A stretch of 64,000 bases of DNA, taken from Streptomyces sp. NBC_01788. GTDB lineage: Bacteria > Actinomycetota > Actinomycetes > Streptomycetales > Streptomycetaceae. Under the pieces are notes generated by a model. It ran no database searches. It was not told the origin of the DNA and saw nothing but the letters and a program-made list of their open reading frames with translations. This document shows, piece after piece, positions 44,440 to 62,926 of this stretch. The translations under genes were made by a program, and so were the position numbers. How positions within the stretch are numbered: position 1 is the stretch's first letter; every line of letters begins with the position of its first letter. The stretch lies in contig NZ_CP109090.1 in the NCBI RefSeq assembly GCF_035917575.1, forward strand, positions 5,952,001 to 6,016,000, given 5' to 3'.

Positions 44440-44548
44440 CGGGATGTCCCGCCGCTTCCGGCGACTCTCGTCAGGGTGACGAAAAAAGGAGGCCGTGGAA
44501 ACAGGTGCGCGGAGGGTGAAACCGGCCGCCGTTGGCCAGGATGGAGGC

Positions 44549-45778: not shown

Positions 45779-45868
45779 CCGTGTACCCGGGGGATCACGT
45801 TCCGGTGACGGCGGGAAGAGGGTCTTGTATCGCAGATCACGTCGGCGTACGGTCCGTATCACCCCGGC

Positions 45869-45908
45869 GAACAAAGTGTTCGCTCAAGAAGTATCAGGTG
45901 TTCGCTCA
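45869..45908 (+). promoter_or_regulatory. Repeated operator overlapping the start of the XRE-cupin gene
   Basis: GTGTTCGCTCA occurs twice (45876-45886 and 45898-45908), 22 bases apart, i.e. two helical turns. The first also forms the inverted repeat GAACA-AAG-TGTTC (45869-45881). The second copy runs into the start codon. Autoregulation by the XRE protein is likely. Confidence 0.5.
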
Positions 45909-46510
45909 TGACTGATCGTTCGTTGCCGGGACCCTCCGGTGGTGACACCGACAGTGCCGCCGACGCGGCGCTGGGGGGCCGCATCCGGGCGTACCGGATG
46001 ATGCGGCGGATGTCGCTGCGGGCCCTGGGGGAGGCGGCGCAGGCCAGCCCCGGGTTCCTCAGTCAACTGGAACGCGGGCAGGTGAACTGCTCCATCGGCA
46101 TGCTGCGGCGGATCGCCGACTCGCTCGGTCTGACCGTGGCCGACCTGTTCGACCAGGACGGCCGGCCCGGTCCGAGGGTGGTGCGCAGGGCCGACCGGCC
46201 GATGCTGCACACCGCTCCAGGAAGTCGCAAATTACTCATCTCGCAGCGCCCGCTCAGCCATCTGGAGGTCTACGCGGGCGAGTTCGACCCCGGGGCCTCC
46301 ACCGGTGACGACGCCTACACCCATGGCGACTCCCAGGAGATCCTCCTGGTGATCAGCGGCGCCGTACGGGTCGAGCTCGACGGCCGGGCCCATGACCTGG
46401 AGGCCGGCGACAGCATCGAGTACCGCTCCTCGGTGCCGCACCGCGTGGTCAACCACCACGAAGACCCCGCGGAGATCCTCTGGATCATCAGCCCGCCGAC
46501 CCCGGACTGA
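45908..46510 (+). CDS. XRE-cupin transcriptional regulator
   Basis: 200 residues. HTH (GGRIRAYRMMRRMSLRALGEAAQASPGFLSQLERGQVNCSIGMLRRIADSLGLTVADLF), then a cupin sensor (YTHGDSQEILLVISGAVRVELDGRAHDLEAGDSIEYRSSVPHRVVNHHEDPAEILWIISPP). PuuR-type regulators have this layout and govern polyamine or amino-acid use. It precedes a polyamine-type importer and an amine oxidase, so it likely controls them. Confidence 0.9.
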   Translation: MTDRSLPGPSGGDTDSAADAALGGRIRAYRMMRRMSLRALGEAAQASPGFLSQLERGQVNCSIGMLRRIADSLGLTVADLFDQDGRPGPRVVRRADRPMLHTAPGSRKLLISQRPLSHLEVYAGEFDPGASTGDDAYTHGDSQEILLVISGAVRVELDGRAHDLEAGDSIEYRSSVPHRVVNHHEDPAEILWIISPPTPD

Positions 46511-46684
46511 CTCCCCCGCTCCCCTCTCCTTCCCGCACCGCACCCGACTCCCGAGCCCCGTACGCCGCACCCCTCCTCGCCGCGCCCTTCCCGCGCGGTG
46601 CCCCGCCGCGCCCCGCCGCCGTGCGCCCGCGCGCCGTGCCCTCTCGGTCCCCTTGCGTCTTCGCCGTCCTCCTTGGAGACAGTC

Positions 46685-47806
46685 ATGCCCGGAATATCAC
46701 GCAAAATCATGGGGTGTGCCGCTGCCGCCGGCGCCCTGCTGCTGACCATCACCGGCTGCGCCGGCACCGGCCCGGCCGCCGCTGACGTCGACCTCGGCCC
46801 AGGACCGGCCGTGGCCGGCCAGGTGAAGAAGGGCGCGCTCGACGGCGTCACCCTCACCTTCACCTCCTACGGCGGCATCTACCAGGACGGCCAGGAGGCC
46901 GCCGCTGTCAAGCCGTTCGCCTCCGAGTCGGGGGCGAAGGTCCTCTCCGACGGGCCCACCGACTACACCAAGGTCAAGGCCCAGGTCGACGCCAAGAACG
47001 TCACCTGGGACGTGGTGGACGCCGACACCCTCTGGGCCAAGCGCCAGTGCGGCAAGATGTTCATGCCGCTGGACAAGGACATCGTCGACACCTCCAAGCT
47101 GCCCAAGGGCACGGAGGACAAGTGCTCCGTGCCGGCCATGAGTTACGGCGTCGTCCTGATGTACGACAAGAAGAAGTTCGGCGACAACCCGCCGAAGGAC
47201 TGGGCGGACTTCCTCGACACCAAGAAGTACCCCGGCAAGCGCGCGATCCCCGGCTTCGCGTCGGACGCGGCCCCGGGAGCGCTGGAGGCGGCGCTGATCT
47301 CCGACGGGGTCGCTCCCGACAAGCTGTACCCGCTGGACGTCGACCGGGCCCTGAAGAAGCTGACGAGCGTCCGCTCCTCGCTGGTCTTCTGGGACACCGG
47401 CGCCCGGTCCCAGCAACTGCTGGAGTCCGGTGAGGTCTCCATGGCGATGGTGTGGTCCGGCCGCGCCTACTCGGCGGTCAAGAACGGCGCCCACTTCGCC
47501 CCGCAGTGGAACCAGTTCCTGCCGGTCTCCGACTCCCTCGCCGTCCCCGTCGGTGCCAGGAACCCCAAGGCCGCCATGGCGCTGATCAACTACTACCTGG
47601 GCGCCGCCCAGCAGACCAAGCTCACCGAGCTGACCTCCTACTCGCCGATCAACACCGACGCCAAGCCCAAGCTCGACACGCTCGCCACGCAGTACCTGAC
47701 CACCACCCCCGAGCGGCAGGCGCAGGCGCTCCAGGTCGACAACGACTGGTGGGCGAAGAACCAGGAGCAGGTCATCCAGAAGTGGTCCGACTGGCTGGCG
47801 CGGTAA
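46685..47806 (+). CDS. ABC importer substrate-binding lipoprotein (polyamine type)
   Basis: 373 residues. Lipoprotein signal with lipobox LLLTITGC. The PotD/PotF-like fold is seen in LTFTSYGGIYQDGQEAAAVKPFASESGAKV, WDVVDADTLWAKRQCGKMF, YGVVLMYDKKKFGDNPPKDWADFLD and SMAMVWSGRAYSAVK. It binds the substrate outside the membrane and delivers it to the two permeases that follow. Spermidine, putrescine or another cationic amine would fit the family; the actual ligand is unproven. Confidence 0.88.
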   Translation: MPGISRKIMGCAAAAGALLLTITGCAGTGPAAADVDLGPGPAVAGQVKKGALDGVTLTFTSYGGIYQDGQEAAAVKPFASESGAKVLSDGPTDYTKVKAQVDAKNVTWDVVDADTLWAKRQCGKMFMPLDKDIVDTSKLPKGTEDKCSVPAMSYGVVLMYDKKKFGDNPPKDWADFLDTKKYPGKRAIPGFASDAAPGALEAALISDGVAPDKLYPLDVDRALKKLTSVRSSLVFWDTGARSQQLLESGEVSMAMVWSGRAYSAVKNGAHFAPQWNQFLPVSDSLAVPVGARNPKAAMALINYYLGAAQQTKLTELTSYSPINTDAKPKLDTLATQYLTTTPERQAQALQVDNDWWAKNQEQVIQKWSDWLAR

Positions 47807-47809
47807 CCC

Positions 47810-48688
47810 ATGACAGCCCTGATCGAGATCGCCTCCCCGGCCACCGGCGGCCGGCCCCGCAAGGGCGCCGGCGGCCGGTGGGGATGGCTGCTGCTCCCCT
47901 CGCTGGTCCTGCTGGCCGTGCTCTTCCTGGTGCCGCTCGGCCTCATGGTCTGGCGCAGCGTCAGCGAACCCACGCCCGGTGCGGCCAACTACTCCTGGTT
48001 CTTCACCAGCGACGTCGCCCTCGCCACACTGGTCCGCACCCTGACCGTCGGCGCCGTCGTCACCCTGGTGACCCTCGTGCTCTCCTACCCGTACGCCTAC
48101 CTGATGACCGTCGTCGGCGCGCGGGCGCGGATCTGGCTCACGCTGCTGGTGCTGCTGCCGTTCTGGACCAGCCTGATGGTGCGCACCTTCGCCTGGGTGG
48201 TGCTGCTCCAGGACAGCGGCGTGGTCAACCAGATCCTCGGCACCGTGGGTCTCGGCCCGCTCCAGCTGATCCGCACCCCCACCGGCGTGGTGATCGGCAT
48301 GTCGCAGGTTCTGATGCCGTTCATGGTGCTGCCGCTGTACGCCGTGATGAGCGGCATCGACCGCCGGCTCCTGGACGCCGCGCAGGGCATGGGCGCGCGC
48401 CCCGCGATCGCGTTCCTGCGGGTGTTCGTGCCGCTGTCGCTGCCCGGGGTGGGCGCCGGCGCGCTGACCGTGTTCATCACCTCGCTCGGCTTCTACGTCA
48501 CCCCGGCGCTCCTCGGCTCGCCCGACCAGGCGCTGATCTCGCAGCAGATCTTCACCCAGGTCAACGGCCTGCTCGCCTGGGGCCGCGGCGGAGCGATGGG
48601 CGTGGTGCTGCTGGCGGTGACACTGGTCCTGCTGGGACTGGTCGGCGTCGTCCTGCGCCTCACCCGCGGCCGGGGAGGTGCCCGATGA
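47810..48688 (+). CDS. ABC permease subunit (PotB-like)
   Basis: 292 residues, six helices. Start three bases after the binding-protein stop. The cytoplasmic loop motif contacting the ATPase, DRRLLDAAQGMGARPAIAFLRVFVPLSLPGV, is the EAA-type signature. Its stop overlaps the next permease start (ATGA). Confidence 0.9.
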   Translation: MTALIEIASPATGGRPRKGAGGRWGWLLLPSLVLLAVLFLVPLGLMVWRSVSEPTPGAANYSWFFTSDVALATLVRTLTVGAVVTLVTLVLSYPYAYLMTVVGARARIWLTLLVLLPFWTSLMVRTFAWVVLLQDSGVVNQILGTVGLGPLQLIRTPTGVVIGMSQVLMPFMVLPLYAVMSGIDRRLLDAAQGMGARPAIAFLRVFVPLSLPGVGAGALTVFITSLGFYVTPALLGSPDQALISQQIFTQVNGLLAWGRGGAMGVVLLAVTLVLLGLVGVVLRLTRGRGGAR

Positions 48689-49476
48689 GGACCGCACCCG
48701 CGCGGATCGCGCTGTGGGCGTTCAGCGTGCTGGTGGGCCTGTGGCTCATCGCGCCGACGCTCGTGGTGATCCCGCTGAGCTTCACCGACAAGGCGTCCCT
48801 GGTGTTCCCGCCGAGCGGCTGGTCCACCCACTGGTACACCAACTTCTTCACCGACCCCCGGTGGACCGAGGCGCTGTTCTCCTCGCTCCAGGTCGGCGCC
48901 CTGGTCGCGGTGGTGGCCACCGCCCTGGGCACCGCCGCCGCGATCGCGCTCACCCGGTCCGGCTCACGCTGGGTCAAGGCGTCGTACGGGCTGCTGCTGG
49001 CCCCCATGATCGTGCCGACCGTGGTCGTCGCCATCGGTGTGTACGCGCTCTTCCTCCAGTACAACCTGCTGGGCACCCTGCTCGGCTTCGTCACCGCCCA
49101 CACCGTGCTGGCCCTGCCGTTCGTGATCATCCCGGTGACGGCGAGCCTGCGCGGCTTCGACCGGCGCCTGGAGGACGCCGCACTGATCTGCGGCGCCACC
49201 CGGTGGGGCGCCATCCGGCAGGTGACCCTGCCGCTGATCGCCCCGGGCGTCGTCTCCGGTGCCCTGTTCGCCTTCGTCACCAGCTTCGACGAGGTCGTGG
49301 TCTCGCTGTTCATCCAGAGCCCCTACCTGCAGACCCTGCCGGTCAGGATGTTCGCCAGCGTGACCCGGGACACCGACCCCACCATCGCCGCGGCCGCCAC
49401 CCTGATCATCGTCTTCACCACGGTGCTCGTACTGGCCGCCACCTTCGCCACCGCCAGGAGGAACCGTGTCCGCTGA
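48685..49476 (+). CDS. ABC permease subunit (PotC-like)
   Basis: 263 residues with six helices and the EAA loop FDRRLEDAALICGATRWGAIRQVTLPLIAPGVVSG. SFDEVVVSLFIQSPYLQTLPVRMFASV is typical of the PotC branch. It pairs with the upstream permease. It overlaps the ATPase gene by 11 bases, so the whole importer is translationally coupled. Confidence 0.9.
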   Translation: MRTAPARIALWAFSVLVGLWLIAPTLVVIPLSFTDKASLVFPPSGWSTHWYTNFFTDPRWTEALFSSLQVGALVAVVATALGTAAAIALTRSGSRWVKASYGLLLAPMIVPTVVVAIGVYALFLQYNLLGTLLGFVTAHTVLALPFVIIPVTASLRGFDRRLEDAALICGATRWGAIRQVTLPLIAPGVVSGALFAFVTSFDEVVVSLFIQSPYLQTLPVRMFASVTRDTDPTIAAAATLIIVFTTVLVLAATFATARRNRVR

Positions 49477-50638
49477 GACCAGCCTCATCAAGGCGCGCGG
49501 AGCCCGTATCGAACTGGCGCAGGTGCGCAAGGAGTACGCGGACTCCGTCGCCGTCGACGACGTCTCCCTGGTGATCGAACCGGGCGAGTTCATGACCCTG
49601 CTGGGCCCCAGCGGCTCCGGCAAGACCACCACCCTCAACATCATCGCCGGGTTCACCGCCGCCACCTCCGGCACGCTGACCATCGGCGGCAAGCAGATGC
49701 AGGACCTGCCGCCGCACCGGCGCGACATCGGCATGGTCTTCCAGCACTACGCGCTCTTCCCGCACATGACCGTCGCGGAGAACGTCGCCTTCCCGCTCAA
49801 GCAGCGCAAGGTGCCGAAGGCCCGCCGCGCCGCGATGGTCGAGGCGGCCCTGGAGACCGTACGGCTCGGCGGCTACGGCCACCGCAGGCCGCGCGAACTG
49901 TCCGGCGGGCAGCAGCAGCGCGTCGCCCTGGCCCGCGCCGTGGTGTACGAGCCGAGCGTGCTGCTGATGGACGAGCCGCTCGGCGCGCTCGACAAGAAGC
50001 TGCGCGAATCCCTCCAGCTGGAGATCAAGCGGGTGCACCAGGAGGTCGGCTCCACCTTCGTCTTCGTCACCCACGACCAGGAGGAGGCACTCGTCCTGTC
50101 GGACCGCATCGCCGTCTTCGACGACGGGGGCATCCAGCAGGTCGGCACCGCGAGCGAACTCTACGAACGGCCCCGCAGCCTCTTCGTGGCCGAGTTCCTC
50201 GGCGAGTCCTCCACCGTCCGGGGACGCGTCGAGGCGGACGGCGACGACTCCCGCGTGCGGGTCGGCGACCGCACCGTACGCGTCGCCGGCCGGCTGCCCG
50301 GCGGCGGCGCGGCCGCCGTCGTGGTCCGGCCCGAGCACCTGCGGGTGCAGCCCGCCGCCGAGCCCGTCGCCCCCGGCGTCAACGCGCTGCCTGCCCGAGT
50401 CACCCAGGAGATATACCTGGGCTCCGGCCGCAAGCTCGAACTCGCCCTGCCCGACGGCACCGTGCTGCTCGCCCGCGAGCAGGCCGACCGGCTCTCCGGC
50501 GTCCGCCACGGCGACGAGGTCACCGTGGTCTGGGACGTCGAACGAGGCGTCCTGCTCGACGACCCCTCCGGCACCACCCACCCATCCACTTCGGGCGACC
50601 GGATCCCGGTCGCCGCCGCGGAAGAGAGCGGACGATGA
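49466..50638 (+). CDS. ABC importer ATPase (PotA-like)
   Basis: 390 residues from GTG. Walker A LLGPSGSGKTTT, Q-loop MVFQHYALFPH, signature LSGGQQQRVALARA, Walker B VLLMDEPLGALD, His switch VTHDQEE. The C-terminal TOBE domain (ARVTQEIYLGSGRKLELALPDGTVLLAREQADR) is typical of polyamine/Fe-type ATPases. It overlaps the FAD oxidase gene by four bases. Confidence 0.93.
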   Translation: MSAETSLIKARGARIELAQVRKEYADSVAVDDVSLVIEPGEFMTLLGPSGSGKTTTLNIIAGFTAATSGTLTIGGKQMQDLPPHRRDIGMVFQHYALFPHMTVAENVAFPLKQRKVPKARRAAMVEAALETVRLGGYGHRRPRELSGGQQQRVALARAVVYEPSVLLMDEPLGALDKKLRESLQLEIKRVHQEVGSTFVFVTHDQEEALVLSDRIAVFDDGGIQQVGTASELYERPRSLFVAEFLGESSTVRGRVEADGDDSRVRVGDRTVRVAGRLPGGGAAAVVVRPEHLRVQPAAEPVAPGVNALPARVTQEIYLGSGRKLELALPDGTVLLAREQADRLSGVRHGDEVTVVWDVERGVLLDDPSGTTHPSTSGDRIPVAAAEESGR

Positions 50639-52038
50639 GCACCACTCCCGCCACCAGCCCCACCTTCGTCAACGGCGACGTCTCCTTCTGGTTCCGGGAG
50701 AGTGGCCTCCCCGCCCGCCGTCCCGCCCTGCCGGGCGACCTGGACGTCGACGTCGCACTCGTCGGCGGCGGCTACACCTCCCTGTGGACCGCCTACTACC
50801 TCAAGAAGGCCCAGCCCGACCTCAGGATCGCCGTCCTGGAGAAGGAGTTCGCCGGCTTCGGCGCCTCCGGCCGCAACGGCGGCTGGCTCAGCGCCGAACC
50901 GCCCGGCCAGATGCGCCGCTACGCCAAGTCCCACGGGCGCGAGCCGGCCGTCGCCCTGCAGCGGGAGATGTTCTCCTCCGTCGACGAGGTCGTCCGGGTC
51001 GCCGCCGAGGAGGGCATCGACGCCGACATCCAGAAGGACGGCCTGCTGCACGTCGCCACCAACGCCGCCCAGGAGCGGCGGCTGCGCGAAGGGCTGCCCA
51101 CGCTCCGCGCCGAGGGCTGGGGCGAGGACGACCTGGTCGAACTCGACGCGGAGCAGCTCGCCCGGCGGGTCCGCGTGGCCGGCGCCCGCTACGCCCAGTG
51201 GAGCCCGCACTGCGCCCGCATCCAGCCCGCCAAGCTGGTCCGGGGCCTGGCCGACGTGGTGGAGCGGATGGGCGTCGCCATCTACGAGGGCACCGAGGTC
51301 ACCGAGATCCGCCCGCGCGAGGCGGTCACCACCCACGGCACCGTCCGGGCGTCGCACGTCATCCGGGCGCTGGAGGGGTTCACCGCCGAGCTGCGCGGCC
51401 ACCGCCGCGTCTGGCTGCCGATGAACAGCAGCATGATCGTCACCGAGCCGCTGCCCGCCTCCGTGTGGGAGGAGATCGGCTGGCGTGGCGCCGAACTGAT
51501 CGGGGACGAGGCCAACTCGTACTGCTACATCCAGCGCACCACCGACGGCCGCATCGCCATCGGCGGGCGAGGCATCCCGTACAAGTTCGGCTCCCACGTC
51601 GACCAGCGCGGCGAGACCCGCGACGCCACCCAGACGCAGCTGCTGGCCATCCTCCGGCAGCACTTCCCGGCCACCGAGGGCGTCGCGATCGACCACACCT
51701 GGTCCGGAGTGCTGGGCGTGCCGCGCGACTGGTGCGCCACCGTCCACCTGGACCGGGAGACCGGCATCGGCTGGGCCGGCGGCTACGTCGGGCACGGCGT
51801 GACCACCACCAACCTCGCCGGACGCACCCTGCGCGACCTGATCCTCGGCCGGCAGACCGACCTCACCCGGCTGCCGTGGGTGGGCCGCAAGGTGCGCGGC
51901 TGGGAGCCGGAGCCGCTGCGCTGGCTCGGCGTGCGCAGCCTCTACGTCGCCTACCGCGCCGCCGACCGGCACGAGAACTCCGGTCTTGAGCGCACCTCCG
52001 TCATCGCACGCGTCGCCAACGTCATCAGCGGACGCTGA
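50635..52038 (+). CDS. FAD-dependent amine oxidase (PuuB-like)
   Basis: 467 residues of the DAO fold. Dinucleotide motif VDVALVGGGYTSLWTAYYLKKAQPDLRIAVLEKEFAGFGASGRNGGWLS, in which the GASGRNGG segment is typical of gamma-glutamylputrescine oxidase-like enzymes. Further on: WSGVLGVPRDW and GWAGGYVGHGVTTTNLAGRTL, the second FAD contact. It probably oxidises the amine brought in by the upstream importer, releasing aldehyde and ammonia or H2O2. Confidence 0.88.
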   Translation: MSTTPATSPTFVNGDVSFWFRESGLPARRPALPGDLDVDVALVGGGYTSLWTAYYLKKAQPDLRIAVLEKEFAGFGASGRNGGWLSAEPPGQMRRYAKSHGREPAVALQREMFSSVDEVVRVAAEEGIDADIQKDGLLHVATNAAQERRLREGLPTLRAEGWGEDDLVELDAEQLARRVRVAGARYAQWSPHCARIQPAKLVRGLADVVERMGVAIYEGTEVTEIRPREAVTTHGTVRASHVIRALEGFTAELRGHRRVWLPMNSSMIVTEPLPASVWEEIGWRGAELIGDEANSYCYIQRTTDGRIAIGGRGIPYKFGSHVDQRGETRDATQTQLLAILRQHFPATEGVAIDHTWSGVLGVPRDWCATVHLDRETGIGWAGGYVGHGVTTTNLAGRTLRDLILGRQTDLTRLPWVGRKVRGWEPEPLRWLGVRSLYVAYRAADRHENSGLERTSVIARVANVISGR

Positions 52039-52054
52039 AAGGAGCGGTAAGCCC

Positions 52055-52441
52055 ATGGACACCGACACCACCGCACTCGCCCCCGTCGTCGCCTTCCTCG
52101 CCGACCCGGCCAGCGCCGACCTGCCCCCCATGGCGCCCAAGCCCACCAGCACCACCGGCCAGCGGGAGACCACGCTCACCCTGTGGCAGTCGCCCGACGG
52201 GGTGGCCGAGGTCGGGGTCTGGGAGTGCGACCCCGGCCACTTCACCGCCACCCGCGAGGGCTACGACGAGGTCTGCCAGGTGCTGACCGGATCCGCCACC
52301 GTCCGCACCGAGGGCGGTGAGGACGTCGAGCTGCGTCCCGGCGCCACCCTCGCGATGCCGGCCGGCTGGCGCGGCACCTGGCAGGTCCACGAGACCCTGC
52401 GCAAGGTGTACGTGCTGCGCACCCACGGGGCCGGCGCATGA
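52055..52441 (+). CDS. Cupin protein (EutQ/DUF861-like)
   Basis: 128 residues with one small barrel: VGVWECDPGHFTATREGYDEVCQVLTGSATVRTEGGEDVELRPGATLAMPAGWRGTWQVHETLRKVYVLRT. This is the (S)-ureidoglycine aminohydrolase-like/DUF861 pattern frequently found next to DAO-type oxidases. Function is likely accessory. AAGGAG ribosome site; its stop overlaps the amidohydrolase start. Confidence 0.8.
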   Translation: MDTDTTALAPVVAFLADPASADLPPMAPKPTSTTGQRETTLTLWQSPDGVAEVGVWECDPGHFTATREGYDEVCQVLTGSATVRTEGGEDVELRPGATLAMPAGWRGTWQVHETLRKVYVLRTHGAGA

Positions 52442-54084
52442 CCCTCGTCCTGCACGGCGGCCGGGTGTGGACCGGCGACCCGCGGCGCCCGAACGCCACG
52501 TCCGTCGCCGTGTCCGGCGGCCGGATCACGGCCGTCGGCACCGACGCCGAGGTGCGCCGGGCCGCCGGCCGCCCGGCCGAGACGTTCGACCTGGCCGGCC
52601 GGACCGTGGTGCCCGGCCTCCAGGACGCGCACATCCACCCGGTCTGGGGCGCCCTCGAGGCGCTGCGCTGCGACCTCACCCGGGCCACCGACGCCGAGGG
52701 CTGCCTCACGGCCGTCCGGGAGTACGCGGCCGCCCACCCCGGCCGGCCGTGGATCCTCGGCGGCGGCTGGGGCATGGACTGCTTCCCCGGCGGCTGGCCC
52801 ACCCGCGAGCCCCTGGACGCCGTCGTACCGGACCGGCCGGTGTTCCTGCCCAACGCCGACCACCACTCCGCGTGGGTCAACTCGGCGGCACTGGCGCGCG
52901 CCGGGATCGACGCGGCCACCCCGGACCCGCCGGCCGGGCGGATCGAGCGCGACGCGGCCGGCCGGCCCACCGGAGTGCTGCACGAGAGCGCCATGGACCT
53001 GGTGGCCCGGCTGCTCCCGCCGGACACCGCCGAGGACCAGCTTGCCGCGCTGAGCCACGCGCAGACCCATCTCTTCCGGTACGGCATCACCGGCTGGCAG
53101 GACGCCATCGTCGGCGCCTACGGCGGGGCCGGCGACACGCTCGCCGCCTACCGGCGGGCCGACGAGGAGGGGCTGCTGAAGGCCCGTGTCACCGGCGCCC
53201 TGTGGTGGGACCGCGACCGCGGCCTGGAGCAGCTCGACGACCTGGTGGCGCGGCGCGGGGAGCCCGGCCGCCGCTTCCGGGCCGGCGCCGTGAAGGTGAT
53301 GCAGGACGGCGTGCTGGAGAACGGCACCGGCGCCCTGCTGGAGCCGTACCTGGACTCCTGCGGGTGCGCCACCGGCAACGCCGGCCACTCCAACGTGCCC
53401 GCCGCGCTGCTCGCCGACGCGGTGACCCTCCTGGACGCCGCCGGATTCCAGGTGCACTTCCACGCGATCGGCGACCGGGCGGTGCGCGAGTGCCTGGACG
53501 CGGTCGAGGCCGCGGCCGCTGCCAACGGGGCCCGCGAGCGGCGCCACCACATCGCCCATGTGCAGCTGGTCGACGACGTGGACATCGCCCGCTTCGCCGC
53601 GCTCGGGGTGACGGCCAACGTCCAGTCGCTGTGGGCGACCCACCACCAGCAGACCGACGAGCTGACCAACCCGCTGCTGGGCGAGGCGCGGGCCGGCCGG
53701 CAGTACCCCTTCCGCCGGCTGCTGGACAGCGGCGCCCGGCTCGCCGGAGGGAGCGACTGGCCGGTCACCACGGCCGACCCGTGGCAGGCCATGCACGTCG
53801 CCGTGCACCGCACCGAACCGCCCGGTTCGGCGCACACCGGATGGCCGGGCGCCGACCGCCCGTTCGTGCCGCACGAACGGCTGGAGCTGACCGACATCCT
53901 GCGCGCGTACACGGCCGGTTCGGCCTGGGTGAACGGCAACGACGACGAAGTCGGCCTGCTGCGCGAGGGCATGGCGGCCGACCTCGCCGTGCTCGACCGG
54001 GATCTCTTCGCCCCGGACACCGGCGTGGCCGGCACCCGGGCTGTGCTCACCCTGGTCGCGGGGGAGGCGGTCCACACCGCGTGA
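52438..54084 (+). CDS. Amidohydrolase, YtcJ-like
   Basis: 548 residues. Metal-dependent hydrolase with VVPGLQDAHIHPVWG (HxH), the long insertion WILGGGWGMDCFPGGWPTREPLDAVVPDRPVFL, HFHAIGDRAV, HHIAHVQLV and LAGGSDWPV with the final Asp. These are YtcJ-like exo-amidase marks. It ends the importer operon; hydrolysing an amide or carbamoyl form of the imported amine is a reasonable guess. It is convergent with the P450 gene, nine bases apart. Confidence 0.88.
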   Translation: MTLVLHGGRVWTGDPRRPNATSVAVSGGRITAVGTDAEVRRAAGRPAETFDLAGRTVVPGLQDAHIHPVWGALEALRCDLTRATDAEGCLTAVREYAAAHPGRPWILGGGWGMDCFPGGWPTREPLDAVVPDRPVFLPNADHHSAWVNSAALARAGIDAATPDPPAGRIERDAAGRPTGVLHESAMDLVARLLPPDTAEDQLAALSHAQTHLFRYGITGWQDAIVGAYGGAGDTLAAYRRADEEGLLKARVTGALWWDRDRGLEQLDDLVARRGEPGRRFRAGAVKVMQDGVLENGTGALLEPYLDSCGCATGNAGHSNVPAALLADAVTLLDAAGFQVHFHAIGDRAVRECLDAVEAAAAANGARERRHHIAHVQLVDDVDIARFAALGVTANVQSLWATHHQQTDELTNPLLGEARAGRQYPFRRLLDSGARLAGGSDWPVTTADPWQAMHVAVHRTEPPGSAHTGWPGADRPFVPHERLELTDILRAYTAGSAWVNGNDDEVGLLREGMAADLAVLDRDLFAPDTGVAGTRAVLTLVAGEAVHTA

Positions 54085-54093
54085 GCGGCCGGC

Positions 54094-55314
54094 TCACCAG
54101 TTGACGGGGAGGGTGAGCGGCGACTTGCTCGGCGACTCGTCCTCCCAGATGGGGCGGTGGCCCTCGGCCAGGCGCAGGTCCGGGAGCCGGTCGAACAGCG
54201 CCTCCAGGCACACGGTCATCTGCGCCCGGGCCAGATGGGAGCCGATGCAGTTGTGCGCCCCGCGGCCGAAGGTGAGATGGGGGTTGTCCGCGCGGCACAG
54301 GTCGAGCCCGTCGGGGTCGGTGAACACGCTCTCGTCGCGGTTGGCCGCCGCGAGCACGGGCAGCACGGCGTCGCCCGCGCGGATCGTCCGGCCGTGCAAC
54401 TCGATGTCCTCGACGGTCTGGAGGACGACGACGCCGTTCATCACCGGCACATAGCGCAGGAGTTCCTCCACCGCGTCCGGCAGCAGGGCGCGGTGGTCGC
54501 GCAGACGCGCGTACGCGCCGGGCACGCTCAGCAGGGTCAGCACCGCGTCGGCCAGGAACATGGTGCTCGTGCGGTAGCCGGCGACCAGCATGGACAGCCC
54601 GAAGTTCACCGCGCTCTCGTGGTCCAGAGCGCCGCGATCGCACTCCCCGACCAGCCGGGTGAGCATGTCGTCGCCGGGCTCGCGCCGCTTCCGGTCGAGC
54701 AACGAGGTGATGTACTTGCGCAGTTGCGAGGTGGCCTCCCGGCCCTCCTCCAGGGTGAGGATGGCGCCGAGCGCCGCGTCCGCCCTGGGCAGGAAGTAGT
54801 CGCTGTCCTCGTAGGGGATGCCGACGAGATCGCACATCACCATGACGGGGAAGGGCTCGATGAACCGGACGACCAGGTCGCCGGGCTGGTCGCCGGCGAC
54901 GAACGGGTCGAGCAGCCGGTCGGCCGACCGCCGGATGCGCGGCGTCCCGCTCCGCACGGACCGGACGCTGAACGGCTCGCTCAGGGCGCGGCGCAGCGCG
55001 GCGTGCCGGGGGCCCTCCAGCTCCATCATCGTGACCAGGCCCGGCTCGTCCCCGGGGGCATGGCCGGGGCGGGGCGGCCAGTCGGTGATGCTCGGCCTGA
55101 TCAGCCGGGCGTCGGCGACGAGTTCCTTGACGTCGTCGTAGCGGGTGGCGTACCAGGCGGTGGCGCCGATCGGCAGCCTGACCCTGGCCAGCGGGCACTC
55201 CTGGCGCAGCCGTTGGTACTCCTCGGGCGGGCCCATGGTGCCCGGCGGCGGCAGGGGCAGCTCGATGACGGGCACGACGGGCACGTCGACGGCGGGTTCC
55301 GGCGTGGTGTTCAC
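54094..55314 (-). CDS. Cytochrome P450 (second of a tandem pair)
   Basis: 406 residues. Heme motif FGRGAHNCIGSHLAR with thiolate Cys356; EELLR (ExxR). The I-helix reads AGYRTST (245-251) where AGxDTT/AGxETT is usual: the acidic residue is Arg, although Thr is kept. Such changes are known in P450s doing unusual chemistry. It is clearly homologous to the P450 at 55348-56571, 33 bases upstream, and lies in the operon with the adenylation-reductase enzyme. Redox partners are not encoded nearby. Confidence 0.93.
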   Translation of the reverse strand: MNTTPEPAVDVPVVPVIELPLPPPGTMGPPEEYQRLRQECPLARVRLPIGATAWYATRYDDVKELVADARLIRPSITDWPPRPGHAPGDEPGLVTMMELEGPRHAALRRALSEPFSVRSVRSGTPRIRRSADRLLDPFVAGDQPGDLVVRFIEPFPVMVMCDLVGIPYEDSDYFLPRADAALGAILTLEEGREATSQLRKYITSLLDRKRREPGDDMLTRLVGECDRGALDHESAVNFGLSMLVAGYRTSTMFLADAVLTLLSVPGAYARLRDHRALLPDAVEELLRYVPVMNGVVVLQTVEDIELHGRTIRAGDAVLPVLAAANRDESVFTDPDGLDLCRADNPHLTFGRGAHNCIGSHLARAQMTVCLEALFDRLPDLRLAEGHRPIWEDESPSKSPLTLPVNW

Positions 55315-55347
55315 GGGTGGACCTCCCCTGGTGCCTGCGGATGGGGC

Positions 55348-56571
55348 TCACCAGCCGACCGGGAGGGTCAGCGGTGACTTGGTGACGGACTGGTCGTCCC
55401 AGAAGGGCTGTTGACCCCGGGCCGGACGCAGACCCGGGAAGCGGTCGAGCAACGCCTCGATTCCCACCGTCAGTTCGGCGCGCGCCAGGTGCGCGCCCAC
55501 GCAGTTGTGGGTTCCCCGGCCGAAGGCGAGGTGGGGATTGTCCGCGCGGCACAGGTCGAGCCGGCCGGCGTCGGCGAACGCGCTCTCGTCGCGGTTGGCG
55601 GAGGCCAGCACGGGGATGACTGCGTCGCCCGCGCGGACGGTCTGCCCGCCCACCTCGACGTCCTCGGTGGCGAGCAGCAGCACGGTGCCGTTCATCACCG
55701 GCATGTACCGCAGGAGTTCCTCCACCGCGCCGGGCATGAGGTCGCGGTGGTCGCGCAGGCGGGCCCACTGGTCCGGCCGGCGCAGCAGGGTGTGCACCGA
55801 GCCGGCCAGGAAGAAGCCGCTGATGCCGAAGCCGACGGTGAGCATGGACAGCCCGAACGCCGTGACCTCGTCGTCGGTCAGCGTCCCGTCCTCGGTCTCG
55901 CGGACCAGCAGGGTCAGGACGTCGTCGCCGGGCCGGCTCCGCTTCCGCGCGATCAGCTCGGCCACGTACGCGTGCAGCAGGTCGGTGACCCTGCGTCCCT
56001 CCTCGGCGGTCACCATGCCGCCGAGGGCGGCGTCCAGGACCGGCAGGAACCAGTCCCGGTCCTGCCAGGGGATGCCCACCAGGTCGCACAGCACGAGCAG
56101 CGGGAACGGCTCGGTGAAAGCGGCCACCAGGTCGCCGGGAGGGCCGCCCGCCGCGAACTCTTCCAGCAGCCGGTCGGCGAGCGCGCGGATGCGGGGCAGC
56201 CGGTCCCGGACGGCCCCCGCGCTGAACGCCGGGGCCACGGACCTGCGCAGGGCCAGGTGCCGGGGGCCGTCCAGCTCCGCCATGGTGACCAGGCCCGGCC
56301 CGTCGTCGGCGGCCGGTCCGGGACGCGGCGGCCAGTCGTTGATGGTCGGCCTGATCAGCCGGGGGTCGGCGAGCAGCGCCCGGACGTCCTCGTACCGGGT
56401 GACGTACCAGGCGGTCGCGTCCATCAGCAGCCCGACCCGGGTCACGGGACGGCTCTCGCGCAGCCGCGCGCACGTCTCGGGCGGCCCCATGGTGCCGGGC
56501 GGCGGCAGCGGGAAGTCCAGGACGTCCGCCTCTGGGCCCGGCGCCGGCGCGCCGGGTGAGTGTGGGGTCAT
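55348..56571 (-). CDS. Cytochrome P450 (first of a tandem pair)
   Basis: 407 residues with heme motif FGRGTHNCVGAHLAR (Cys357) and EELLR. The I-helix is TVGFGISG (245-252), so both the acid and the following Thr of the proton-relay pair are missing. The N-terminal LPPPGTMGPPE block is shared with the downstream P450, showing duplication. It probably modifies the aldehyde, amine or condensed product of the reductase enzyme encoded 47 bases upstream. Confidence 0.93.
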   Translation of the reverse strand: MTPHSPGAPAPGPEADVLDFPLPPPGTMGPPETCARLRESRPVTRVGLLMDATAWYVTRYEDVRALLADPRLIRPTINDWPPRPGPAADDGPGLVTMAELDGPRHLALRRSVAPAFSAGAVRDRLPRIRALADRLLEEFAAGGPPGDLVAAFTEPFPLLVLCDLVGIPWQDRDWFLPVLDAALGGMVTAEEGRRVTDLLHAYVAELIARKRSRPGDDVLTLLVRETEDGTLTDDEVTAFGLSMLTVGFGISGFFLAGSVHTLLRRPDQWARLRDHRDLMPGAVEELLRYMPVMNGTVLLLATEDVEVGGQTVRAGDAVIPVLASANRDESAFADAGRLDLCRADNPHLAFGRGTHNCVGAHLARAELTVGIEALLDRFPGLRPARGQQPFWDDQSVTKSPLTLPVGW

Positions 56572-56618
56572 GCTGGCTCCTTCGGCGTGGGCTGAGGGAG
56601 TCCGGCCACCGGCGCCGG

Positions 56619-59600
56619 CTACGGGCGCTCGATGTAGCCGGTGGCGTAGAAGTACTCCAGGTAGCGGTCCAGCAGATCCGCGTCGACGGGCGGGCAGCTC
56701 AGGCCCGTACCGGCCAGGCCGCGTTCGACGTTGTCCCGCCCCACGGACGGGAAGGTGCCCTCGAAGTACATCTCCTTGACGGACATGTCCGCCTGCTTGC
56801 AGCGGTCCACGCACAGGGAGACGAACGGGGCGGTGGGACTCGTGGGGTGCCGCGCGACATGGCGGACGAGGTCGTCCACCCACTCCTCGTAGGGAAGCCG
56901 CCGGATCCGGTGGCCGCTCGCGTCCATCCGGTCCAGCATGTCGCGCAGGCTCGCCGGGCGGGGGTTGGTCATGTGGTAGGTCCGGTGGGTGGTGCGGTGC
57001 CCGGTGGCGATGTGCACCACCGCCTCGGTGAGGAAGTCCACCGGGACGAAGTCCAGCGGTAGCGGGATGTCGGGGGCAAGCCCGGTCTCGGTGATCGTCT
57101 TGAACAGCGAGCAGATCGCGGTGTCGGTGTTGCACGCGCCGGTGCGCCGGTCGCCGGTGATCTCGTACGGCCGGTGGACCGCCACCGGCAGGCCTTGGCC
57201 GGCGGCGTCCCGCAGCACCTCCTCGGCCACCCACTTGCTCTCGGCGTAGCCCATGGTGAGCCGGTCGGCGTGGTCGAGCGGCAGGTCCTCGTCCACGTGC
57301 CGCACGCCCGCGGTGCCGAAGCCGGCGAGCACCGCGATGGTGGAGAAGAAGTGCACGGGCACGGCCCGTTCGGCCGCCAGTCGTACGAGCTGCCGGGTGC
57401 CCTCCACGTTGGCGCGGCGCAACGCCTCGTACGGGTAGAGGAAGTTGACCTGTGCGGCGGCGTGCAGCATCAGGTCGAGGGTGCCGGCCAGCTCCTCGGC
57501 GCGGCCCGGTTCCATACCGAGGCCGGGCTCGGCGAGGTCGGCGGGGAAGCACACGACGCGGTCGGCCGCCTCCGCGCCGGCGAGGCCGAAGCGGGCCAGG
57601 TTCCGCATCACCTTCTGCCGCGCGTGCGCGGCGTCGCGGGCGCGCACCGGGCAGTGCACCCGGGCGCCGGTGCGTCGCAGCAGCCGGTCAAGCAGGAAGG
57701 CGCCGACGAAACCGGAGGCCCCGGTCAGCAGTACCTCCCCGGGGTGCCGCCAGTCCGGTTCGGGACCGCGCGGCGACGGCAGGGCGAAGCCGAGCCGCGA
57801 CTCGGCGCGGAAGTCCACGGCGTGGGCCTCGGGGGCCGCCCGGGCCCGCCGGCCCTCGACGGAGGTGAGGGTGGCGACGGCGGCGGTGAAGTCCTCCAGG
57901 GTGGGGGAGCGCAGCAGGCTGTGGACCAGGGTGCGGCCGTACCGGGCGTCGAGGCCGAAGGCCGCCAGGGTGCGGGTGACGACCTCGGCCGCCAGCAGGG
58001 AGTCGCCGCCGATGTCGAAGAAGCCGTCCCCGGGCGCCGGGCGCACGCCCAGCACCACCTGCCACACCCGCGCCGCCGACTCCTGCGGGCCCGGAACCGG
58101 ACCCGGGCGCTGCCCGTTCGCCGGGGCGGCGGGCCTGCCCGGCGCCGCGTTCGGGGCCGTGTCCGCGGCCGCCAGCAGGCGCAGCCGGCGCCGGTCCACC
58201 TTGCCGCCCGCGGTCACCGGGAACCGCCCCACCTCCACCAGCCGCGCGGGCACCGCCGCCGCGGGCAGCCAGGCCGTGAGGCCGCCGCGGATGCGGTCCA
58301 GCGGCAGCGCCATGCCGGGCCGGGCCGGTGTCACGTACCCGATCAGGCTGTCGCCCTCCAGTTCCACGACGGCCTCGCCCACCGTGTCGTCCGCGCGCAG
58401 CCGCGCCTCTATCTCGTCCGGCTCGATGCGGTGCCCGCGCAGTTTGATCTGCCGGTCGACCCGCGCCCGGTACTCCAGTACGCCGTCCGCGCGCCGCACC
58501 ACCCGGTCGCCGGTGCGGTAGAGCCGCGTACCGGGCTCGAAGCGGTTGTCGACGAAGCGCTCGGCGGTCAGCTCGGGGTCGCCGAGGTATCCCAGCGCGA
58601 GCCCGTCCCCGCCGACGAGGAGTTCGCCCTCCTCACCGGCGTCCGCGAGCGTGCCGTCCGCCCGCACCACGTAGCAGGTGGAGTTCTCCAGCGGCCGCCC
58701 GATCGGCACCGCCGTCGCCTCGGGCGGCAGGTCGTCCACCAGGTGCGCGGTGGAGACCACGCTGTTCTCGGTCGGACCGTAGAAGTTGACCACGGTGGTG
58801 TCGGGGCAGGCCGCCAGGATCGCGCGGGCCAGCTCCGGGTCCATCGCCTCGCCGCCGGCCGAGGCGAACCGCAGCGACCGCAGCGCCGACGGCCTGGTGC
58901 GCCCGATGTGGTGGAACACCCCGGTGGTCAGGTAGGCGACGCTGACCCGCTCGGACAGCAGCCGGGACTCCAGGGCGGCCGGGGACAGCAGCTCCTCCTG
59001 GTCGGCGATCACCACGCAGGCCCCGGCGAGCAGCGGGGACCAGATCTCGATCGTGGAGGCGTCCGAGGAGAGGCCGTAGGCGTGCAGCACCCGCTCACCG
59101 GGCCGCGGCCGCTGCCACACCAGATCGGAGGCGGCCAGCCGGACCACGCCGCAGTGCGGGACCGCCACGGGTTTGGGACGGCCGGTCGAGCCGGAGGTGA
59201 ACATCACATAGGCGCAGTCCCCGGAACGTGCCCCGGTCCGGGGGAGCGCGACCGGGGCGCTCGGCGTCGACCCGTTCAGCGCGATGCGGGTACGCACCCG
59301 CCGGATCCGGCAGACACTGCCGGGCAGCGTCACCACGGTGTGTATGCCAGCGTCCTCCGCCATCGCCTGGAGCCGTCCGGGCGGGGAGGCGTCGTCGAGC
59401 GGGACGTAGGCCGCACCGGCCTTGAGGATGCCGAGAAAGGCGACCAGCGCCTCCAGGGACCGGCCCCCGCACACGCCGACCCCGTCGCCGCGCCGCACCC
59501 CGGAGCCGAGCAGCCGGGCGGCCAGCGCGTCGGAGCGGTCCTTCAGCTCGCCGTAGCTCATACTGCGGCCGTGCTGGACGGAGGCGGTCGCCCGTGGGCG

Positions 59601-59711
59601 CAGCGCGGCCCGGGCGTCGAACAGCTCATGCAGACAGCGATCGCGCGGGTACCACGCCGTTCCCGCGTTCCACGCCGGTGCCACCGGAAGCGTCCTGCTG
59701 TCAGTGACCAT
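56619..59711 (-). CDS. Single-module NRPS-like enzyme: adenylation, carrier, thioester reductase
   Basis: 1030 residues. Adenylation domain 1-515: VMFTSGSTGRPKP (A3), SSDASTIEIW (A4), NFYGPTENSV (A5), YRTGDRV (A7), RVDRQIKLRGHRIEPDEIE (A8) and FPVTAGGKVDRR with Lys504 (A10). Carrier domain about 540-610 with phosphopantetheine Ser571 in FFDIGGDSLL. Reductase domain about 655-1030: LLTGASGFVGAFLLDRLLRR (NADPH), HFFSTIAVLAG (Ser/Thr) and GYAESKWVAEE (Tyr-x3-Lys). No condensation or thioesterase domain. It should activate one acid and release it as aldehyde or alcohol. The substrate code was not deduced. ATG 59711 chosen over upstream in-frame starts. Confidence 0.92.
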   Translation of the reverse strand: MVTDSRTLPVAPAWNAGTAWYPRDRCLHELFDARAALRPRATASVQHGRSMSYGELKDRSDALAARLLGSGVRRGDGVGVCGGRSLEALVAFLGILKAGAAYVPLDDASPPGRLQAMAEDAGIHTVVTLPGSVCRIRRVRTRIALNGSTPSAPVALPRTGARSGDCAYVMFTSGSTGRPKPVAVPHCGVVRLAASDLVWQRPRPGERVLHAYGLSSDASTIEIWSPLLAGACVVIADQEELLSPAALESRLLSERVSVAYLTTGVFHHIGRTRPSALRSLRFASAGGEAMDPELARAILAACPDTTVVNFYGPTENSVVSTAHLVDDLPPEATAVPIGRPLENSTCYVVRADGTLADAGEEGELLVGGDGLALGYLGDPELTAERFVDNRFEPGTRLYRTGDRVVRRADGVLEYRARVDRQIKLRGHRIEPDEIEARLRADDTVGEAVVELEGDSLIGYVTPARPGMALPLDRIRGGLTAWLPAAAVPARLVEVGRFPVTAGGKVDRRRLRLLAAADTAPNAAPGRPAAPANGQRPGPVPGPQESAARVWQVVLGVRPAPGDGFFDIGGDSLLAAEVVTRTLAAFGLDARYGRTLVHSLLRSPTLEDFTAAVATLTSVEGRRARAAPEAHAVDFRAESRLGFALPSPRGPEPDWRHPGEVLLTGASGFVGAFLLDRLLRRTGARVHCPVRARDAAHARQKVMRNLARFGLAGAEAADRVVCFPADLAEPGLGMEPGRAEELAGTLDLMLHAAAQVNFLYPYEALRRANVEGTRQLVRLAAERAVPVHFFSTIAVLAGFGTAGVRHVDEDLPLDHADRLTMGYAESKWVAEEVLRDAAGQGLPVAVHRPYEITGDRRTGACNTDTAICSLFKTITETGLAPDIPLPLDFVPVDFLTEAVVHIATGHRTTHRTYHMTNPRPASLRDMLDRMDASGHRIRRLPYEEWVDDLVRHVARHPTSPTAPFVSLCVDRCKQADMSVKEMYFEGTFPSVGRDNVERGLAGTGLSCPPVDADLLDRYLEYFYATGYIERP

Positions 59712-59759
59712 CGGGATGTCCCGTCTGTGCTGCACGTGAACCGCCCGCCGCACGGAGAA

Positions 59760-60215
59760 CTACGACTCGAACTCCGTGGCGAAGGCGGAGAAGTCGGCCG
59801 TTCTCCATCTCTCGGGCCGCATGCGGATGAGGATGTCGTCGACCAGCTGCTCCTGGTTGGCCGCCAGGTAGGCCGCCGCCGTCTCCGCGTCCAGGTACCG
59901 GTGGGCCAGCGCCTCCTGCTCGGCCGCGGGCAGCGGATCCTCGACGCCCACGACCGGCCCCTCCACGCTCACATACCGATACGGGGCCGACTCGTCCTGC
60001 GCGCAGAGGCTGAACCTCCCGGCGTCACGGATGAGGCGGGCCTTCAGCGACTGCCGCCCGGTCGCGATCGTCACCGGACCGCCGGGACGGTAGGAGTACC
60101 AGAGCGGGACCAGCAGCGGGCCGGCGCCGTCACGAGGATCGTCGACCCCCAGGATTCCCACGTGGAGGCCGGCGAGGAACTCTTCCCGGTCTTCGACCGA
60201 CATCCTGAGATCCAT
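59760..60215 (-). CDS. Pyridoxamine-phosphate-oxidase-fold flavoprotein
   Basis: 151 residues of the split-barrel PPOX family: FLAGLHVGILGVDDPRDGAGPLLVPLWYSYRPGGPVTIATGRQSLKARLIRDAGRFSLCAQDE. FMN or F420 binding is expected, and SVEGPVVGV forms the barrel end. It is the first gene of the minus-strand biosynthetic operon, 48 bases before the adenylation-reductase gene. A role in oxidising or reducing a pathway intermediate is likely. Confidence 0.88.
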   Translation of the reverse strand: MDLRMSVEDREEFLAGLHVGILGVDDPRDGAGPLLVPLWYSYRPGGPVTIATGRQSLKARLIRDAGRFSLCAQDESAPYRYVSVEGPVVGVEDPLPAAEQEALAHRYLDAETAAAYLAANQEQLVDDILIRMRPERWRTADFSAFATEFES

Positions 60216-60278
60216 GACTCCCAGAGTTCAACAGACCCGGGCGCTTCGCATCCCGGACCCCGGCACTCTGTATAGAAA

Positions 60279-60304
60279 TGTGGAACATCGTATAGACTTC
60301 CACA
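60279..60304. promoter_or_regulatory. Inverted repeat between the biosynthetic operon and arcB
   Basis: TGTGGAA (60279-60285) and TTCCACA (60298-60304), 12 bases apart. GTATAGA occurs twice across it (60269-60275 and 60289-60295), one of which could be a -10 box. It is the only visible control element in the 126-bp divergent gap and could serve both directions. Confidence 0.45.
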
Positions 60305-60341
60305 GTCCGCACTCCGCCCGCCGTCCCCAGGAGACTCCCCG

Positions 60342-61349
60342 ATGGTGCACGTCCCGACCGGTCTCACCGGCCGCCACTTCCTCAAGGAGCTGGACTTCAC
60401 CGAGGAGGAGTTCCGCGGCCTGGTCGGACTGGCCGCCGAGCTGAAGGCCGCCAAGCGGGCCGGGACCGAGACGCCGTACCTGCGGGGCCGCAACATCGCG
60501 CTGATCTTCGAGAAGACCTCGACGCGCACCCGCTGCGCCTTCGAGGTCGCCGCCGCCGACCAGGGCGCCTCGACGACGTATCTCGACCCGTCCGGATCCC
60601 AGATGGGGCACAAGGAGTCCGTCAGGGACACCGCCCGTGTCCTCGGCCGGATGTTCGACGCGATCGAGTACCGGGGCGACAGCCAGGACACCGTCGAGGA
60701 ACTCGCCGCACACGCCGGCGTCCCCGTCTACAACGGGCTCACCGACGACTGGCACCCCACCCAGATGCTCGCCGACGTGCTCACCATGACCGAGCACTGC
60801 GCCAAGCCGCCGCGCGAGACCGTCTTCGCCTACCTCGGCGACGCCCGCTTCAACATGGGCAACTCCTACCTGGTCACCGGCGCCCTGCTCGGCATGGACG
60901 TACGGCTCGTCGCCCCCAAGAGCTACTGGCCCGCCCAGACGGTCGTCGACCGCGCCCGCGAACTGGCCGCCTCCAGCGGCGCGCGCATCACCCTCACCGA
61001 GTCACTGGAGGAGGGCGTGCGCGGCGCCGACTTCGTCGCCACCGACGTCTGGGTCTCCATGGGGGAGCCCAAGGAGGCCTGGGACGAGCGGATCGAGGCC
61101 CTGGCCCCGTACGCCGTGACGATGGACGTGCTGCGCGCCACCGGTAACCCGGACGTGCGGTTCCTGCACTGCCTGCCCGCCTTCCACGACCTCGGCACCG
61201 AGGTCGGCCGCGAGATTTACGAGCGGCACGGCCGCACCTCGCTGGAGGTCACCGACGAGGTCTTCGAGTCGGCCCACTCGGTCGTCTTCGACGAGGCGGA
61301 GAACCGGCTGCACACCATCAAGGCGATCATGGTCGCCACCCTGGCCTGA
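60342..61349 (+). CDS. arcB: Ornithine carbamoyltransferase, catabolic type
   Basis: 335 residues. Carbamoyl-phosphate site [13 protein letters not shown], ornithine site region [38 protein letters not shown], and [14 protein letters not shown]. In the deiminase pathway it splits citrulline to ornithine and carbamoyl phosphate. The length and motif details fit ArcB rather than biosynthetic ArgF, and an amino-acid permease follows, but the separation from arcA is unusual. AGGAG ribosome site. Confidence 0.92.
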
Positions 61350-61474: not shown

Positions 61475-62926
61475 ATGTCCGCTCCCCGCATCAAGTCCCC
61501 GGCCCTCCTCGTCGCCGAGTCAGGCGCCGACAGCGCGGGCCACGGCCTCAAGCGCACGATGGGCCTGTTCCAGCTCGTCTGCTTCGGCATCGGCGCGGTC
61601 GTCGGCACCGGCATCTTCGTCGGCCTGTCCGACTCGGTCGCCCAGGCCGGCCCCGCCGTCGTCGTCTCCTTCGTCCTGGCGGCGATCACCTGCGTGTTCA
61701 CCGCCTTCTCCTTCGCCGAGCTCGGCGGCGCGATCCCCGTCTCCGGATCCTCGTACTCCTTCGCCTACGCGGGCCTCGGCGAGACCACCGCCTTCCTGGT
61801 CGGCTGGTGCCTGCTGCTCGAGTACGGCATCTCCATCTCCGCGGTCGCCGTCGGCTGGAGCCAGTACGTCAACGAGCTGCTGCACAGCCTCACCGGATGG
61901 CAGCTGCCGGCCGCCCTCTCCGCCGGACCCGGCGACGGCGGGGCCGTCAACCTTCCGGCCGTCCTCGTCATCGCCATGGCCTGCCTGCTGCTGGTGCGCG
62001 GAGTGCGCGAGAGCGCCCGGGCGACCGCCGCGATGGCCGTGCTCAAGATCGTCATCCTGGTCGCCTTCTGCGCCATCGGGTTCTCCGCCTTCAAGCACGG
62101 CAACCTCACCCCGTTCTCGCCGGCCGGACTCGGCGGCATCGGCGCGGGCACCACGGCCGCGTTCTTCTCCTACATCGGCTTCGACGCGATCACCACCGCG
62201 GGCGAGGAGGCCAGGAACCCGCGCCGGGACATCCCGGTCGCCATCCTCGTCTGTATCGGCCTGGTCACCCTGCTGTACTGCGCGGTCGCGCTCGCCGCGA
62301 TCGGCGCCATCGGCGGCGACCAGGTCGGCGGCCGGCCCGCGGCACTGTCGTACGTCGTCAACACGGTCACCGGCTCCACGGTCGGCGGCGCCGTGATCGC
62401 CTTCGGCGCGGTCGTCGCCATCGCCTCCGTGGTGCTGACCGTGACGTACGCCCAGTCCCGCATCCTGATGTCGATGTCGCGTGACGGGCTCGTGCCGCCC
62501 GTCCTGCAGAAGGTCTCGCCGCGCACCTCGGTGCCCGTCGCCGGCACCCTGATCGTCGGCGTGGTCTTCGCGATCCCCGCGGCGTTCGCCTCGCTGGACG
62601 TCGTGGTCAACCTCTGCACCATTGGCACGCTCGCCATCATGGGCGTCGTCAACATCGCCGTGATCACGCTGCGCCGCCGCGAGCCGGGGCTCGCCCGCAC
62701 CTTCCGGGTGCCGCTGTACCCCGTGCTGCCGGTGCTCGGCGTCGGCTGCTCCCTGTACCTGATGTACGAGACCGGCTGGACCACCTGGCTCCAGTTCGCC
62801 GGCTTCCTCGTGGCCGGGCTGCTGGTGTACGCCGTCTACGGCCGCCGGCACTCCCGGCTGGCGGCGCGGGCCGGGGCCGCGGAGGTCACGCCGGGTGCAG
62901 CCGGGGCGGACCCGCGGACAACCTGA
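61475..62926 (+). CDS. Cationic amino-acid permease (APC family)
   Basis: 483 residues with about twelve helices. Start region LKRTMGLFQLVCFGIGAVVGTGIFVGLSDSVAQAGPAVVVSF carries the substrate-binding GxG loop of helix 1. FFSYIGFDAITTAGEEARNPRRDIPVAIL in helix 6 is typical of CAT-type carriers. It lies 125 bases after arcB and probably moves arginine or ornithine. The 3' end overlaps the convergent HATPase gene by 41 bases. Confidence 0.9.
   Translation: MSAPRIKSPALLVAESGADSAGHGLKRTMGLFQLVCFGIGAVVGTGIFVGLSDSVAQAGPAVVVSFVLAAITCVFTAFSFAELGGAIPVSGSSYSFAYAGLGETTAFLVGWCLLLEYGISISAVAVGWSQYVNELLHSLTGWQLPAALSAGPGDGGAVNLPAVLVIAMACLLLVRGVRESARATAAMAVLKIVILVAFCAIGFSAFKHGNLTPFSPAGLGGIGAGTTAAFFSYIGFDAITTAGEEARNPRRDIPVAILVCIGLVTLLYCAVALAAIGAIGGDQVGGRPAALSYVVNTVTGSTVGGAVIAFGAVVAIASVVLTVTYAQSRILMSMSRDGLVPPVLQKVSPRTSVPVAGTLIVGVVFAIPAAFASLDVVVNLCTIGTLAIMGVVNIAVITLRRREPGLARTFRVPLYPVLPVLGVGCSLYLMYETGWTTWLQFAGFLVAGLLVYAVYGRRHSRLAARAGAAEVTPGAAGADPRTT

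Follow-up and report, generated by a model that had tools for sequence, protein, structure and literature searches.

The closest described relatives of the locus studied here are the guanipiperazine clusters of Streptomyces. A review describes GupA, from Streptomyces chrestomyceticus, as an FDOR-B reductase that depends on F420H2 and whose dihydropyrazine substrate is formed from two L-tyrosines; it adds that homologues of parts of the gup cluster are widespread in Streptomyces. A genome paper on S. rimosus describes the rms cluster as 6,254 bp that encode two P450s, a PPOX-like reductase dependent on F420H2, and a noncanonical NRPS, and it reports that guanipiperazines A and B were isolated. 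In another paper, a cluster of Streptomonospora nanhaiensis 12A09 is termed guanipiperazine A/B-like, and one of the loci in our survey (L073), independently assigned to the gup type, falls inside the coordinates given for it. In fungi, the herquline pathway (HqlABC) is described as converting tyrosine to a dityrosine piperazine, on which a P450 then forms a strained cyclophane; HqlB is an SDR, and the reductases of other fungal piperazine clusters are NmrA-like and use NADPH. Piperazinomycin is described as an antifungal diaryl-ether diamine, and the papers found to name this compound are, judged by titles and passages, not about its genes.

The window analyzed here, a stretch of 64,000 nucleotides from Streptomyces sp. 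NBC_01788, contains a compact block on the minus strand that, read from 60215 to 54094, encodes a PPOX-fold protein, an A-T-R enzyme, and two P450s, here called P450a and P450b (Table 1). The four co-directional genes had been predicted to be separated by gaps of 33 to 48 bases and to include two paralogous P450s; their coordinates were confirmed, with gaps of 48, 47, and 33 bases for the chosen starts, and the P450s are 62% identical to each other over 390 residues. The A-T-R frame is open from 59753 to 56619, and the consensus start of its relatives favors the ATG at 59711. AMP-binding, PP-binding, thioester reductase, and p450 matches all lie above the Pfam or NCBIfam cut-offs, and a condensation domain is absent from the Pfam matches of the A-T-R protein, in agreement with the original prediction. 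A scan for sigma-70 promoters and terminators gave no match, a result that carries little weight in Streptomyces.

Table 1. Features of the block and its surroundings, in positions of the window
Feature	Coordinates	Strand	Remarks
GupA-like PPOX-fold (FDOR-B-like) reductase, putative F420H2-dependent dihydropyrazine reductase	59760..60215	-	151 aa; 62% to S. rimosus counterpart; AF2 model
A-T-R NRPS-like enzyme, inferred tyrosine activation and reduction	56619..59711	-	1030 aa; Pfam/NCBIfam; 63% to S. rimosus counterpart; code DAIYAAFVVK
Adenylation domain, residues 45-525 of longest A-T-R frame	58179..59621	-	Pfam/NCBIfam
Carrier (PP-binding) domain, attachment Ser585	57948..58070	-	Pfam; Ser in 44/44 gup-type and window-type loci
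Thioester reductase domain, Thr805, Tyr836, Lys840	56631..57734	-	TIGR01746 above cut-off
P450a, divergent paralogue, altered I helix	55348..56571	-	ATG start, 407 aa
P450a I-helix segment T-V-G-F-G-I	55822..55839	-	faces AGxET/AGxES-type segments of solved P450s in alignments
P450b, I-helix segment V-A-G-Y-R-T, resembles first gup P450 (M-A-G-Y-K-T)	54094..55314	-	GTG start, 406 aa
Island holding the block, about 14.5 kb, between arcA (44495-45778) and argF (60342-61349)	45780..60265		comparison with relatives

While the combination of these four genes had first been taken for an arrangement not seen before, the same gene kinds make up the rms and gup clusters, and guanipiperazines have been isolated from the rms system. 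The likeness consists of a compact block with a PPOX-fold reductase of putative F420 type, an A-T-R enzyme, and two P450s, together with a nearly identical adenylation code. The layout is thus already known, and the novel part is a duplicated and diverged P450 that replaces the second gup P450. As our S. rimosus reference we used a locus (L039) of strain NRRL WC-3904, distinct from the proven producer, whose block length is 6,196-6,397 bp depending on the choice among the first five start codons, near the published length with no exact match. Compared with this locus, the window proteins are 63% (A-T-R enzyme) and 62% (PPOX-fold protein, over 136 residues) identical. The fungal herquline route, compared by its pathway description, shares the order of a dityrosine piperazine followed by a P450, whereas the SDR HqlB and the NmrA-like reductases of fungal clusters differ from the PPOX fold of the window block.

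The block is part of a genomic island: argF and the arginine deiminase gene arcA are direct neighbors in all 11 relatives compared (out of 24 genomes with a strong argF match, the window's own included) but lie 14.5 kb apart in the window. Similarity to the relatives ends at 45759-45773 and resumes at 60261-60318, and no shared word of at least 10 bases was found between the two ends of the island. The same island carries, at 46598-54084 on the plus strand, genes for a solute-binding protein, an ABC permease and ATPase, an oxidase of the DAO type (matched below cut-off by an aminophosphonate oxidoreductase family), and an amidohydrolase. All ten window open reading frames around the block recur at one related locus, that of Streptomyces sp. 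CB01373 (L009); at other loci, matches among these ten are confined to the ABC ATPase or the oxidase (12 loci, 29-33% identity where printed). At 41731-44439, the window encodes a large protein that combines kinase, phosphoesterase, and PNKP ligase domains, the domain set of bacterial Pnkp RNA repair.

The absence of a transporter, also part of the original prediction, holds for the immediate neighbors, argF and the amidohydrolase, but not for the cluster type as a whole. At 7 of the 11 window-type loci among the matches listed (L011, L012, L013, L014, L019, L065, and L071; L009, which shares the flanks of the window, was left out), an exporter ATPase of the DrrA type, scoring over the NCBIfam cut-off, is encoded upstream of the PPOX gene and on the opposite strand. 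The six other ATPases are 85-90% identical to the L019 copy, and at 5 of these 7 loci a permease gene was found as well. Neither exporter gene is present beside the block in the window, and the closest matches at other sites of the genome reach 73% (ATPase) and 67% (permease) identity; the exporter and its permease are likely further cluster members that are missing beside this copy. Somewhat further off, the window contains an amino acid permease (61475-62926) and the ABC transporter of the island (46598-50638).

The A-T-R enzyme is present as a single copy in the genome, the next best match being 41% identical over the adenylation and carrier part only. Its ten code residues, positioned by hand on the GrsA pattern, read DAIYAAFVVK, as they do in 12 of 12 window-type loci among the matches listed. 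The 32 gup-type loci among the matches listed have DAIYVAFVVK (29 loci), DAIYAAFVVK (2 loci), or DAIYVALVVK (1 locus), and the window code thus equals the main gup-type code at 9 of 10 positions, with Ala in place of Val299. Because of this near identity, tyrosine is the best guess for the substrate, and the core product is, by the same comparison, most likely 2,5-bis(4-hydroxybenzyl)piperazine. A wider pocket could result from Ala at position 299, and the protein is only 63% identical to that of S. rimosus, as might be expected if the domain took another aromatic or a modified amino acid and the product were a different piperazine or a pyrazine; with nine code residues equal and the window code itself found at two gup-type loci, we regard such a substrate as improbable. 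Among the matches listed, every one of the 44 loci of the gup and window types retains the carrier Ser; Thr, Tyr, and Lys of the reductase domain are retained in 43 of 44 such rows, with a gap in the remaining one.

MxcG loads lysine, and the MxcG profile matches the A-T-R protein. A lysine-type substrate was dropped because the code fits the gup-type loci and its sole acidic residue is the first Asp, which is usual. Two A-T-R relatives (L040 and L050) have the codes DGHHAAFVVK and DGHHVAFVVK with a related exporter nearby (56-57% identity in the ATPase) and perhaps use another substrate.

The profile matches of the PPOX-fold protein do not reach the curated cut-offs (for the Rv1155_F420 family, 54.8 bits against a required 79.05), and a family profile hits 1RFE (2.1e-4) and, weakly, 3F7E. 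Its AF2 model (pLDDT 93) has a split-barrel fold whose best solved match is the F420 reductase MSMEG_3380 (3F7E), with F420-bound Rv2074 and Rv1155 among the first ten. Since FMN- and heme-binding split barrels match the model as well and the profile score is below the cut-off, the fold is no proof of F420 use. FO synthase is needed for F420, and a gene for it, over the profile cut-off, is present in the genome. Matches to the PPOX protein with E below 1e-54 occur in at least 16 of 392 genomes of the genus, at least 4 of them (our own included) at 75% identity or more; the genomes were drawn evenly, and at most nine candidates were scored per genome. Because of the GupA-like PPOX protein, we discarded the formation of an unreduced pyrazine.

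The first gup P450 reportedly performs an intramolecular C-O coupling that gives a strained product, and the second is said to catalyze an intermolecular coupling. The window has no close homologue of the second gup P450; it has instead two relatives of the first, one of them with an altered I helix. P450b and P450a are 43% and 44% identical, respectively, to the first gup P450 of the S. rimosus reference locus. In a tree of 113 P450s, built by a quick method with SH-aLRT support and no bootstrap, P450a and P450b each belong to a group of 14 rows (98 and 99); both groups are nested in one of 29 rows (97), where a single row from L022 is of unsettled placement. This larger group lies inside a 36-row clade (100) that joins the 32-row clade of the first gup P450 at an SH-aLRT of 99, and the second gup P450 (31 rows) is found elsewhere in the tree. 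Two other loci (L018 and L069) have two P450b-like genes each; the first copies of both loci sit together on a long branch (SH-aLRT 92) and may stem from a separate duplication.

Equal core gene kinds and an equal number of P450s would be expected if one of the paralogous P450s had taken over the second coupling and the block made guanipiperazines like the gup clusters. However, P450a is only 31% identical to the second gup P450 of the reference locus, its place in the tree is a different one, and the search for a second gup P450 found none in the block and, in the whole genome, a best-scoring match of 31% with no row above 34%; we see little chance of an identical product. As a modified duplicate of the first gup P450 stands in for the second, the product is probably different from guanipiperazine.

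We compared the best 120 of at least 327 relatives of P450a with E <= 1e-60, 58 of which are nearer P450a and 62 nearer P450b, and among these two columns split the two sides at 95% or more, both in the I helix (Phe253 against Tyr and Gly254 against Arg); at 85% there are seven, namely, 250, 251, 253-255, 103, and 184. On the P450a side of the same sample, Gly replaces Arg at position 254 in 57 of 58 rows, and Thr at position 255 has become Ile in 51 of 58 (Thr is kept in 6 and is Pro in 1). By alignment, the altered positions face the E and the T (or S) of the AGxET-type segment of solved P450s, and they lie inside helix 233-263 of the P450a model (mean pLDDT 84.9). OleP and TleB, the closest folds among solved structures, are uninformative on coupling.

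This loss of I-helix residues might mean that P450a is a partner protein or degenerate and that the product, for example, piperazinomycin or a close relative, comes from P450b alone. The dN/dS of P450a exceeds that of P450b in 5 of 6 comparisons, and a single P450b-like gene occurs at 4 of the 76 related loci (best 80 of 201 matches, merged), which would fit such a role. Nevertheless, the heme Cys and the ExxR motif are kept in 58 of 58 P450a-side rows (and in 62 of 62 P450b-side rows) of the best 120 of at least 327 relatives, the altered motif is itself conserved, and the dN/dS of P450a against six relatives is 0.23-0.50, within the range of 0.14-0.50 across all four genes; we therefore consider a degenerate or merely assisting P450a rather unlikely. 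Given the conserved heme Cys and ExxR, these dN/dS values, and the changed I helix, P450a is maintained but altered.

The survey of related loci (76, merged from the best 80 of 201 matches) places this cluster beside the gup type. The gup-type P450 pair was found at 32 of the 76 loci (at L048 the second P450 is cut by a contig end), the window-type pair at 12, and two other P450b-like copies at 3; 25 loci have no P450 of these types nearby, which is weak evidence of absence where loci are cut by contig ends, as some are. The four genes occur in the same order at 12 of the 76 loci, and their association is beyond chance because gene content and order are common to these loci. In a FastTree of A-T-R enzymes (74 rows; L081, L083, and L084 left out), window-type rows fall into a group of 22 (support 89) and gup-type rows into one of 42 (93). 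The P450 configuration largely tracks this tree, with 12 changes compared with 36.0 in shuffles; the exceptions among window-type A-T-R rows are L017, with a single P450, and L015, with none. From these comparisons, the window cluster would be a sister of the gup-type pathway, and its product is probably related but different. A search for the window-type cluster and its P450 names found no description or product in the literature covered, a scope that stopped short of the primary gup paper and most subscription papers. Other PPOX and A-T-R cores have no such P450 nearby (L015 and L026) or lie by a different P450 type (L031, L043, and L057), and they perhaps make other piperazines.

Our results lead us to propose a gup-like pathway, which we think reasonably likely as a whole and whose chemistry we infer throughout: a tyrosine piperazine core, a ring coupling by P450b, and a second oxidation or coupling by P450a. 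The A-T-R enzyme would activate L-tyrosine, load it onto the carrier, and release L-tyrosinal, two molecules of which would condense to a dihydropyrazine; this is consistent with the earlier expectation that the core releases an amino aldehyde and that a heterocycle is a likely product. The PPOX protein would then use F420H2 to reduce the dihydropyrazine to 2,5-bis(4-hydroxybenzyl)piperazine, and P450b would couple both phenol rings intramolecularly through a C-O bond, giving a strained, piperazinomycin-like diaryl ether. In its detailed structure, piperazinomycin is expected to resemble the product of such a coupling, and the link between the two is tentative. P450a, a duplicate with a rebuilt oxygen-activating helix, may finally carry out a second oxidation or coupling on the diaryl-ether scaffold, a step that would replace the intermolecular coupling by the distant second gup P450. 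Gene content, homology, the adenylation code, the paralogy of the P450s, the absence of a close homologue of the second gup P450, the split-barrel fold of the PPOX protein, and the FO synthase gene are directly established, and the identities of 63% (A-T-R enzyme) and 43-44% (P450s) leave room for another substrate or reaction.

Going one step further, we speculate that P450a is a second bond-forming enzyme that lacks the usual I-helix acid-alcohol pair and makes a new bond on the strained dityrosine piperazine, an idea that we hold tentatively and consider possible but doubtful. If it is true, the product of window-type clusters would be a caged or doubly bridged piperazine alkaloid not yet described, and P450a and P450b would illustrate how a phenol-coupling P450 acquires a new reaction.

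Our findings turn an apparently unrecognized cluster into a concrete prediction, namely, a tyrosine piperazine other than guanipiperazine. They point to a sister group in Streptomyces, Kitasatospora, and relatives in which the second P450 is a duplicate of the first and not a distant recruit. With consistent differences mostly in the oxygen-activating helix, P450a and P450b may offer a clean test case for a change of reaction in coupling P450s.
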